Source of the DNA: Hydrogenophaga sp.
GTDB lineage: Bacteria; Pseudomonadota; Gammaproteobacteria; Burkholderiales; Burkholderiaceae_C
DNA length: 64,000 bases
Assembly: GCF_018780385.1 (NCBI RefSeq)
Contig: NZ_JADMJO010000055.1
Location: forward strand, 1 to 64,000
Reading direction: 5' to 3'
The notes under the pieces are model-generated. The model searched no databases. It was not told the DNA's origin and was given only the letters and a program-made list of their open reading frames with translations. The position numbers and the translations under genes are program-made. Below, piece after piece: positions 34,807 through 54,495 of this stretch; positions within the stretch are counted from its first letter, which is position 1; each line of letters begins with the position of its first letter.

Positions 34807-36471
<1,665 letters not shown>

Positions 36472-51241: not shown

Positions 51242-51545
51242 GGAAGGGTTCTCCAAGGGTTGAATAAGGACTGGTGGTCTGTGCCGCCGAGCCGACCTCC
51301 ATCAGGAAGCTGAATGGATTGCATCAGAAAGTAATGGAGGGCGCCACGGTGGAATCCGCATTTCCGCCCTATGAAGGTGCTTCTGTTGCACCACTGCGAC
51401 GCACTTGGTAGTAACCCGTACGGGATTTGTTCACAGACTTCGTCCAGCCTCTCGCCAACGGTGATCTTCAAGCTTGTGCTTCGACAACTCCTTGGCTGAC
51501 AGAACGTGGCAGCATCTCTTCTTCGCCATCGATCACAAACCATCC

Positions 51546-52205
51546 ATGACCACCGCCACAGACGCCTTGATCAATGCCGCTGATTCGGCCTTGAGGACCT
51601 TGTTCGTGACCCCCAGGGCATCACGAGACTGTCCGACGGTGCCCGAGCGGGCCACCGACCACGATCTCAGCGAGGCCGACAAGCGCCTCTCTGGTGCCTT
51701 GATGCGGGTGAACCATGTGGGTGAGGTGTGCGCGCAAGCGCTGTACACGGCGCAGGCCCTCACGGCACGCTGGCCCACGAATTCAGGCCAACCGGATTTG
51801 GCCCTGGCGGCACAGATGGACGCGGCAGGCAAGGAAGAAACCGATCACCTGGCCTGGACCCAGACTCGGCTGGACGAACTGGGAGCGCGTGCTTCGCTGC
51901 TGAACCCGCTGTGGTACGCGGGGGCCTTCGGGCTGGGGCTGATTGCGGGGCGCCTGGGTCCTGCGGTGAGCCTTGGCTTCGTGGTGGAGACCGAGCGGCA
52001 GGTAGAGGCGCATCTGGCCGAACACATGGAGCGACTGCCAGTCGGAGACCACGCCTCGCGCGCCATCGTGGCGCAAATGAAGCTGGACGAAGCCCGACAT
52101 GCTCGCGAAGCCCAGGACGCGGGGGCGGTGGAGTTACCGGCGCCGGTGAAGGGACTGATGAAGCTGGCGGCCAAAGTCATGACGACGGTGGCGCACCGCA
52201 TCTGA
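51546..52205 (+). CDS. coq7: 3-demethoxyubiquinol 3-hydroxylase
   Basis: [52 protein letters not shown] (di-iron ligands). Confidence 0.95.
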
Positions 52206-52214
52206 AACCCTGGC

Positions 52215-52664
52215 TCAGGCTTCCAGAACTTCGAAGCTGGTGGTGATGGCCGCCGTCTTGCCCAGCATGATGCTGGCTGAGCAGTACTTGTCGTGGCTCA
52301 TGGCGATGGCGCGTTCCACCGCAACGGGCGGGATGGCCTTGCCGCTCACGGTGAAATGCATGTGGATCTTGGTGAAGACTTTCGGATCGGTTTCGGCGCG
52401 TTCGGTCTCAAGCTTCACGCTGCACCCGCGTACATCATGGCGTCCACGCTTGAGGATAAGCACCACGTCGTAGGCCGTGCAACCGCCGGTGCCGGCCAAC
52501 ACGGTTTCCATGGGGCGCGGTGCCATGTTGGCGCCGCCGTTTTCGGGCTTGGCGGCGTCGGGAGCACCGTCCATGGTGATCACATGTCCACTGCCGGTTT
52601 CTGCCACAAAACCCATGTGGGAACGGGTGCCGGCCGCGCCGGTCCAGGTGACGGTGCATTCCAT
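52215..52664 (-). CDS. OsmC family protein
   Basis: MECTVTWTG...MAPRPMETVLAGTGGCTAYDVVLILKRGRHDVRGCSVKLETERAETDPKVF; convergent with coq7. Confidence 0.93.
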   Translation of the reverse strand: MECTVTWTGAAGTRSHMGFVAETGSGHVITMDGAPDAAKPENGGANMAPRPMETVLAGTGGCTAYDVVLILKRGRHDVRGCSVKLETERAETDPKVFTKIHMHFTVSGKAIPPVAVERAIAMSHDKYCSASIMLGKTAAITTSFEVLEA

Positions 52665-52738: not shown

Positions 52739-52770
52739 CATGTTGCGTCGCAACATGGCTTCGATATACT
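52739..52770 (+). promoter_or_regulatory. promoter with palindromic operator for the sRNA-like gene
   Basis: CATGTTGCG-T-CGCAACATG (52739-52757), perfect 9-1-9 palindrome; -35 TTGCGT (52743-52748), 16-nt spacer, -10 TATACT (52765-52770). Confidence 0.7.
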
Positions 52771-52776
52771 CGCGGC

Positions 52777-52855
52777 ATTGTATGTAAGGTTGTCTCCTCT
52801 ACCCTCCCTGGGTGGATTTAAGCCCGGACCGGTTCTGCCAGTCCGGGCTTTTTTT
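52777..52855 (+). ncRNA. candidate small RNA (about 79 nt) or attenuator leader upstream of ilvA
   Basis: Own sigma70-like promoter; hairpin UCUACCC(52798-52804)/GGGUGGA(52810-52816) with UCCCU loop preceded by GUCUCC; intrinsic terminator AGCCCGGAC(52821-52829)/GTCCGGGCT(52841-52849)+T7; no coding potential. Confidence 0.7.
52821..52855 (+). terminator. intrinsic terminator of the sRNA-like gene
   Basis: AGCCCGGAC-cggttctgcca-GTCCGGGCT followed by T's. Confidence 0.88.
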
Positions 52856-52887
52856 CGCCATCGATATGATGCGGTTGGAGAAAATTC

Positions 52888-54495
52888 ATGACCGCCCGCG
52901 CAGCCAAGACCCAAAAACCGCCTCAATCGACACCGTCGCCCGTCACCACCATGGGGCCGGCCGACTACCTTAAAAAGATCCTGACTGCTCGCGTGTATGA
53001 CGTGGCGGTGGAGTCTGCGCTGGAGCCGGCACGCAACTTGAGCGAGCGGCTGCACAACACGGTGCTGCTCAAGCGCGAAGACCAGCAACCGGTCTTCAGC
53101 TTCAAGCTGCGCGGCGCCTACAACAAGATGGCGCACCTGACGCCCGAGCAACTCAAGAAGGGCGTGATCTGCGCTTCGGCCGGCAACCACGCCCAGGGTG
53201 TGGCGCTGAGCGGGCGCAAGCTGGGCACACGGGCGGTGATCGTCATGCCGACCACCACGCCGCAGGTCAAGATCGACGCGGTGCGCGGCTTTGGTGGCGA
53301 GGTGGTGCTGCACGGTGAGAGCTACACGGACGCCTACAACCACGCGGTCGGGCTTCAAAAGAAGCAGGGACTCACTTTTGTGCACCCGTTCGACGATCCC
53401 GACGTGATCGCGGGCCAAGGCACGATCGCGATGGAAATCCTGCGGCAGCTGCAAAGCCTGGGGTCTGACCACTTGGACGCGGTGTTCGTGGCCATCGGCG
53501 GCGGTGGTCTCATTTCCGGCGTGGCCAACTACATCAAGGCGCTGCGCCCGGAGATCAAGGTGATCGGCGTGCAGATGAACGACTCGGACGCGATGATCCG
53601 TTCGGTGCGCGAGGGCGAACGCACCACGCTGGCCGACGTGGGCCTGTTCTCGGACGGCACGGCGGTCAAGCTGGTGGGCGAAGAGACTTTTCGCATCGCC
53701 CGCGGGCTGGTGGACGAATTCATCACGGTGGACACGGACGCGGTGTGCGCGGCCATCAAGGACGTGTTCGTGGACACGCGCAGCATCGTGGAGCCGGCCG
53801 GTGCGTTGTCGGTGGCGGCCGTCAAACAGTACGTGGCCACCCACAAGACACGAGGCCAGACCTACGCGGCCATCCTGTGCGGCGCCAACATGAACTTCGA
53901 CCGCCTGCGTTTCGTGGCCGAGCGCGCGGAGGTTGGCGAAGAACGCGAAGCGTTGTTTGCGGTGACGATTCCCGAGGAACGCGGCAGCTTCCGGCGTTTC
54001 TGCGAACTCATTGGCGACTTGCCGGGCGGCGCGCGCAACGTGACCGAGTTCAACTACCGCATCCACGACGGCAGCAAGGCCCACGTGTTCGTGGGGCTGA
54101 CCACACAGGGCAAGGGTGAGTCGACCAAGATCGCGAAAAACCTGATCAAGCACGGGTTCCAGACGCTGGACCTGACCCATGATGACCTGGCCAAGGAACA
54201 CATCCGTCACATGGTGGGTGGGCATTCGCCCCTGGCGCATGACGAGCGGCTGTTGCGCTTCGTGTTTCCGGAGCGTCCGGGGGCGCTGCTCAAGTTTCTC
54301 AGCCTGATGCGACCGGGCTGGAACATCAGCCTGTTTCACTACCGCAACCAGGGCGCCGACTACGGGCGCATCCTCGTGGGCCTGCAGGTGCCGGCCAAGG
54401 ACCACAAGGCCTTCGACAAGTTTCTGGAAACCCTCGGCTACCCCTGCGTGGAAGAGACCAACAATCCGGTCTACCGCTTGTTCCTGCAGAGTTGA
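52888..54495 (+). CDS. ilvA: threonine ammonia-lyase, biosynthetic
   Basis: VLLKREDQQPVFSFKLRGAYNKM (PLP lysine), ASAGNHAQGVALSG, two C-terminal ACT-like regions. Confidence 0.96.
   Translation: MTARAAKTQKPPQSTPSPVTTMGPADYLKKILTARVYDVAVESALEPARNLSERLHNTVLLKREDQQPVFSFKLRGAYNKMAHLTPEQLKKGVICASAGNHAQGVALSGRKLGTRAVIVMPTTTPQVKIDAVRGFGGEVVLHGESYTDAYNHAVGLQKKQGLTFVHPFDDPDVIAGQGTIAMEILRQLQSLGSDHLDAVFVAIGGGGLISGVANYIKALRPEIKVIGVQMNDSDAMIRSVREGERTTLADVGLFSDGTAVKLVGEETFRIARGLVDEFITVDTDAVCAAIKDVFVDTRSIVEPAGALSVAAVKQYVATHKTRGQTYAAILCGANMNFDRLRFVAERAEVGEEREALFAVTIPEERGSFRRFCELIGDLPGGARNVTEFNYRIHDGSKAHVFVGLTTQGKGESTKIAKNLIKHGFQTLDLTHDDLAKEHIRHMVGGHSPLAHDERLLRFVFPERPGALLKFLSLMRPGWNISLFHYRNQGADYGRILVGLQVPAKDHKAFDKFLETLGYPCVEETNNPVYRLFLQS

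Follow-up and report, generated by a model that had tools for sequence, protein, structure and literature searches.

The locus between osmC and ilvA in Hydrogenophaga sp. is best read as an independent sRNA gene with its own transcription unit, and its RNA is a new member of the already known family RF02278. The encoded RNA probably acts in trans, being repressed by PhaR, a sensor of the storage polymer PHB, derepressed by PHB and directed at the silencing of mRNAs for the uptake and oxidation of carbon sources. This computational reading draws on the family match, a covarying RNA structure, the conservation of a palindromic operator, the agreement of this operator with three published motifs, its co-occurrence with PhaR, a phasin-linked sibling element and an enrichment of solute-binding-protein genes among the seed-matched genes. 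On balance, and with less assurance, the arrangement seems to extend to the Burkholderiales, where PhaR would repress both an RF02278 sRNA and a phasin transcript with a 3'-derived sibling, and the filling of the store would silence the mRNAs for carbon uptake and oxidation.

Organization of the sRNA locus

Within the window, the whole 64,000-nucleotide stretch that was analysed, coq7 (51543–52205, plus strand, PF03232) and an OsmC family gene (52215–52664, minus strand, PF02566) lie upstream of the sRNA unit as conserved neighbours, the former being found also beside S17 of Bordetella pertussis. The threonine dehydratase gene ilvA (52888–54495, plus strand, PF00291 and PF00585) lies downstream and outside the unit. 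The promoter is composed of the -35 element TTGCGT (52743–52748, plus strand) and the -10 element TATACT (52765–52770, plus strand), separated by a spacer of 16 nt. The -10 element is invariant or nearly so across 30 genus loci; the -35 element is weak, with 3/6 consensus bases, and a strict sigma-70 scan reported no promoter at the sRNA locus. The -35 element is situated within CATGTTGCGTCGCAACATG (52739–52757, no strand assigned), a perfect 9-1-9 palindrome on direct reading and, by comparison with published motifs, a predicted PhaR/PhbF operator.

The primary transcript is predicted from the -10 element and the fold to span 52777–52857 on the plus strand, with a length of about 81 nt. On the same strand, the homologue alignment delimits a seed (Site 1), UGUCUCCUC (52791–52799), which is complementary to GAGGAGACA ribosome-binding sites. 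The seed is followed by hairpin 1 (52799–52815), supported by fold and covariation and exposing the loop UCCCU (Site 2) at 52805–52809, and by an intrinsic terminator formed by a stem-loop and a U run (52820–52855), supported by the fold and many compensatory changes. The terminator ends 32 nt before the ilvA ATG (52888). The palindrome, the promoter elements with their spacing, the GTCTCC stretch, the UCCCU hairpin, the terminator and the 32-nt gap are thus all present as the original prediction had described them.

Family membership and RNA structure

Positions 52791–52856 (plus strand) match the core of RF02278 (Betaproteobacteria_toxic_sRNA, 'Betaproteobacteria toxic sRNA') in Rfam with 54.1 bits against a gathering cut-off of 50, so that the RNA itself is not new. 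RF02278 is the only RNA family reaching the gathering level in the whole window, and the original prediction, which could name no family and proposed an Rfam search, is corrected on this point. The family traits are present in the form of an unpaired UGUCUCC 5' seed, a hairpin, and a terminator hairpin with a U run. At E <= 0.001, matches occur in 58/60 genomes of the same genus, 87/101 of the family and 101/150 of the order; two genomes from one family (f7), G165 and G213, carry 8–9 RF02278 copies each, some of them close together. Membership in MmgR/suhB (RF00519; 26.0 bits, cut-off 41), in anti-hemB (RF02837; 30.4 bits, cut-off 49.5) and in Pseudomon-1/ErsA (below cut-off) was rejected for the window RNA.

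Members of RF02278 have been detected as transcripts in Burkholderia cenocepacia (PMC4603805, PMC5688073) and in Herbaspirillum (PMC7011215), the relatives being ncS03, ncS05, ncS27 and ncS62 in the former and Hsnc059/063/086/107 in the latter. In addition, S17 of B. pertussis is counted as a relative by its anatomy and coq7 synteny.

The RNA folds with -34.3 kcal/mol (z = -4.74), and none of 200 shuffled sequences is equally stable. The seed UGUCUCCUC does not vary across the 68 aligned homologues, and RNAalifold predicts 14 base pairs from these sequences, 10 of which show changes on both sides, mostly in the terminator stem together with two pairs of hairpin 1. Compensatory changes, whose absence had been named beforehand as evidence against an sRNA gene, are therefore found in 10/14 pairs. 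The conserved synteny that was to be checked alongside the covariation is likewise borne out, the order coq7 > osmC < sRNA > ilvA > being kept in nearly all 60 genus and family loci.

Conservation of the palindromic operator

A 9-1-9 palindrome alone is not rare enough to carry weight, the window containing two; the second perfect one, CAAAGCGGTTACCGCTTTG, is located at 35190–35208. The operator is counted as significant because it is conserved in all 30 Hydrogenophaga loci while most upstream columns vary. The core TGTTGCRWYGCARCA is present in 30/30 of these loci with varying flanking positions, and TGTTGC-RWY-GCARCA occurs in 30/30 at a nearly fixed position before the -10 element, the loci having been picked by sRNA score and not by operator. 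Across them, the TGTTGC and GCA/CA columns are invariant at 2.0 bits, against less than 1 bit for most upstream columns. The middle three bases occur in eight types, always purine-W-pyrimidine, as a palindrome requires.

Beyond the genus, the relaxed core is found in 26/30 other family loci and in 18/40 order-level loci, where 0.19 are expected from shuffles and 1/40 is found downstream. The strict 15-mer lies upstream in 41/61 loci compared with 2/61 in the downstream control. With <=2 mismatches allowed, the exact 17-mer recurs at just one more site in the genome, and many of the other TGnTGCnnnGCAnCA sites of the genome fall inside genes. An operator private to this locus and read by its own regulator was nevertheless rejected, as looser PhaR-type sites are common to phasin and other promoters. 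The original idea of one dedicated regulator thus gives way to a site that fits PhaR, a pleiotropic PHB-sensing repressor whose operators also precede phasin genes.

PhaR/PhbF as the predicted regulator

The palindrome looks like a binding site of PhaR/PhbF, as judged by motif matching. Three motifs are available for comparison: the Herbaspirillum PhbF motif TG[N]TGC[N]3GCAA, which footprint and repression data have established (PMC3206438); the R. eutropha PhaR motif YTKNTGCRNYGCANMAR, consisting of palindromes with one central base (PMC12849132); and the S. meliloti PhaR core motif YGCRNYGCR (PMC12542648). By eye, the window site differs from YTKNTGCRNYGCANMAR only at the two outermost positions, and the operator lying over the promoter agrees with the published PhaR/PhbF consensus, as expected for a member of the PhaR/PhbF regulon.

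The genome has a single gene for PhaR, whose product contains both PHB_acc domains (PF07879 and PF05233). Since almost every genome of the family encodes PhaR (99/101), co-occurrence of operator and PhaR is uninformative there; the family-level test was dropped and the order level used instead. Among 36 sRNA-bearing genomes of the order, the operator is present in 18/24 with PhaR and in 0/12 without it (P = 3e-5). Counted by family, the figures are 11/12 and 0/7 (P = 1.6e-4). Both P values assume independent genomes or families, an assumption that holds only partly.

The main competing explanation is that the same RF02278 sRNA is under another regulator recognizing TGC-GCA palindromes, with PhaR uninvolved. 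Such a regulator is unlikely, although the PhaR site here is a motif-based prediction, 6/24 PhaR-bearing genomes have no strict operator before the sampled sRNA, and expression of S17 is BvgAS-dependent in B. pertussis. The site agrees with three PhaR motifs from independent publications, down to the R-N-Y centre and the one-base spacer, and this argues against another regulator, as do the co-occurrence of the operator with PhaR and the presence of the same motif before phasin genes, the classical targets of PhaR. As S17 is reported to be Bvg-enhanced, other regulators do act on relatives of the sRNA.

Two further observations concern the promoters. In several PhaR-less lineages the sRNA is preceded by a different promoter-like stretch, TATTAGATAAT, that they have in common (L267–L270, L272, L275, L277, L279 and L285). 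Meanwhile, PhaR-type palindromes precede genes for an AhpC-type peroxiredoxin, a PTS EIIA (PtsN-like) protein and a patatin-like phospholipase and, by the look of the encoded sequences, for a Kup-like transporter and an OmpW-like protein. These five palindromes (L081:1294, L085:1609, L082:1209, L084:1749 and L086:1397) make a wider PhaR regulon possible.

A phasin-linked sibling element

The genome contains a second RF02278-like element, scoring 30 bits and thus below the cut-off, with the same seed as the sRNA beside ilvA. This sRNA-like element, composed of the seed UUGUCUCCU and a terminator (L091:2826–2902, plus strand), follows a phasin gene (PF09361; L091:2158–2700) at a distance of 126 nt, and the phasin gene is itself preceded by two PhaR-type operators. 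The arrangement recurs in 19/20 further genomes, including one from a distant family, with a weak hit 84–171 nt downstream of a phasin gene bearing one or two such operators. UUGUCUCCU is found in nearly all phasin-linked elements, which end in a terminator (also in L317–L335). The element is apparently uncatalogued, and an sRNA element downstream of a phasin gene was not found as an arrangement in the published literature searched.

A third RF02278-like hit (L004, contig C97, 30.6 bits) was rejected in favour of anti-hemB (RF02837), which it matches with 64.4 bits against a cut-off of 49.5. An anti-hemB sRNA is thereby located in a Hydrogenophaga genome at L004:1501–1587 (minus strand), RF02837 being annotated as a Burkholderia RNA.

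Relation of the sRNA to ilvA

In almost all 60 loci the element lies immediately before ilvA and in the same orientation, and in the window just 32 nt separate terminator and ATG. This position raises the question of a cis-acting ilvA leader or attenuator, in which transcripts from the palindrome promoter would cross the terminator into ilvA in a regulated manner. The retained gene order leaves some room for a cis role, but as the main reading an attenuator or leader was rejected and is very improbable. First, 49/60 loci have a hexamer of the TATGAT type beyond the terminator, where shuffled sequences lead one to expect 1.5; in the window it lies at 52865–52870 (plus strand) as the predicted -10 of a separate ilvA promoter. 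With this conserved -10 of its own, ilvA does not simply have the RNA as its leader, and the original view of a self-contained sRNA gene is upheld. Second, the synteny has exceptions: L064 has no ilvA downstream, and in L060 the gene lies at a distance of 809 nt. Furthermore, order-level relatives often keep osmC or coq7 on one side, while ilvA was not detected in the approximately 700 nt read downstream.

Moreover, a leader peptide rich in Ile/Val/Leu was not found among the ORFs upstream of ilvA, in line with the earlier remark that the missing run of Ile/Val/Leu codons speaks against classical ilv attenuation. Neither mark of an ilv attenuator leader, such a peptide or the lack of a separate ilvA promoter, was thus found. 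The TATGAT-like -10 in the window and in homologues (L006–L064) is very near the ilvA start, and given this closeness the ilvA mRNA may be leaderless in some species.

Predicted targets and proposed circuit

The trans-acting reading directs attention to ribosome-binding sites matching the seed. AGGAGACA followed by an ATG within 2–9 nt occurs at 128 sites in the genome, compared with 36 for the permuted AGGAGAAC. Genes for solute-binding proteins (Pfam) account for 11/30 of the first seed-matched genes and 1/25 of the controls (P = 0.004), in a comparison of about 55 genes by motif matching alone; as the genes were chosen by seed match, the set comprises genes that could be hit and is not proof of targeting. 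Further seed-matched genes encode molybdopterin-type dehydrogenase subunits, a PQQ dehydrogenase, a GMC oxidoreductase and an acyl-CoA ligase. These classes agree with the published target classes of ncS27 and S17. According to a review, ncS27 curbs the use of carbon sources. S17 represses through ribosome-binding sites (PMC11722255). Shine–Dalgarno pairing, suggested originally from the C-rich tracts, is thus a mode of action already published for the family and accords with the invariant seed. Predicted pairing with the starts of ilvA and the phasin gene is no better than the control mean.

In the proposed circuit, PhaR/PhbF would occupy the palindrome over the -35 element and block the sRNA promoter as long as PHB is absent. 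Under carbon excess, PHB granules would form and draw PhaR to their surface, a movement described in R. eutropha (PMC12849132) and, in vitro, in H. seropedicae (PMC3206438). With PhaR titrated by the granules, the sRNA would be derepressed and made together with the phasin mRNA, downstream of which the second element with the same seed may be co-transcribed. The seed UGUCUCCUC and the UCCCU loop would then base-pair with ribosome-binding sites of the GAGGAGACA type and so halt translation, many of the mRNAs silenced in this organism presumably serving the uptake and oxidation of carbon sources; the transcript may also be processed to a shorter form. Binding, repression and derepression at the sRNA promoter are here inferred from motif and co-occurrence. 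In B. cenocepacia, ncS03/05/27 rise 4- to 8-fold in glucose medium, which the PHB–PhaR model fits, and 2.6- to 3.9-fold in starvation. A toxin-like RNA serving growth arrest or a toxin–antitoxin role is the least probable reading of all, for although RF02278 owes its name to toxicity upon cloning in E. coli and overexpression of ncS27 slows growth, no antitoxin partner is seen, overexpression of S17S barely affects E. coli (PMC11722255), and both the synteny kept on the chromosome and the target data in the literature speak for metabolic regulation.

Comparison with known systems

Across the Burkholderiales, RF02278 sRNAs are common and act as repressors of numerous transporter and catabolic genes. 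Apart from the Bvg enhancement of S17, the literature covered names no signal that controls them. Published members resemble the window RNA in sequence, in their two hairpins, in a seed and loop that are rich in C and U and complement ribosome-binding sites, and in the terminator, whereas hairpin 1 is shorter in the window RNA, with a 5-nt loop. Three Burkholderia members share an upstream motif, left unnamed in the main text of the report (PMC5688073).

In the case of S17 and S17S, the seed, the terminator and the coq7 neighbourhood are shared with the window. S17, which has a near-identical 5' part, is made beside coq7 as a Bvg-enhanced 190-nt precursor that is cut by RNase E (PMC11722255). 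Its seed is located further from the promoter, whereas the window seed lies about 14 nt after the predicted start. The S17-type neighbourhood takes the form coq7-osmC-sRNA in the genus and family loci, and coq7 is adjacent in L254, L256 and L282. Two candidate relatives beside coq7 (L254 and L256) carry a TCTTGCATCGCACAA site directly before the -10 element.

The PhbF/PhaR operators of Herbaspirillum and of R. eutropha phasin promoters resemble the window site in their TGC/GCA triplets, R-N-Y centre and position over promoter elements; the known betaproteobacterial sites concern protein genes, whereas the window site precedes an sRNA gene. Neither the PhaR link nor the phasin sibling is mentioned in the main texts on ncS27, S17 and Herbaspirillum, the 2019 ncS27 work being covered through a review, or in two papers on R. 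eutropha and a review of PHA regulation, in a search covering few subscription journals. If true, the PhaR operator would tie RF02278 sRNAs to PHB storage, supply the 'toxic sRNA' with a physiological signal and carry PHB-granule status into post-transcriptional control in Burkholderiales. For bioplastic engineering, altered PhaR or PHB flux would then change carbon uptake through RF02278 RNAs.

A PhaR-repressed sRNA as such has a proven precedent in MmgR (RF00519) of S. meliloti, a short CU-rich sRNA that is linked to PHB and directly repressed by PhaR/AniA, as demonstrated by EMSA (PMC12542648), and the same control is proposed here. MmgR belongs to another RNA family and limits phasins, whereas no strong pairing to the phasin start was found for the window sRNA. 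The Burkholderiales system, if true, would thus be a counterpart of the alphaproteobacterial PhaR–MmgR circuit, built with a different RNA family.
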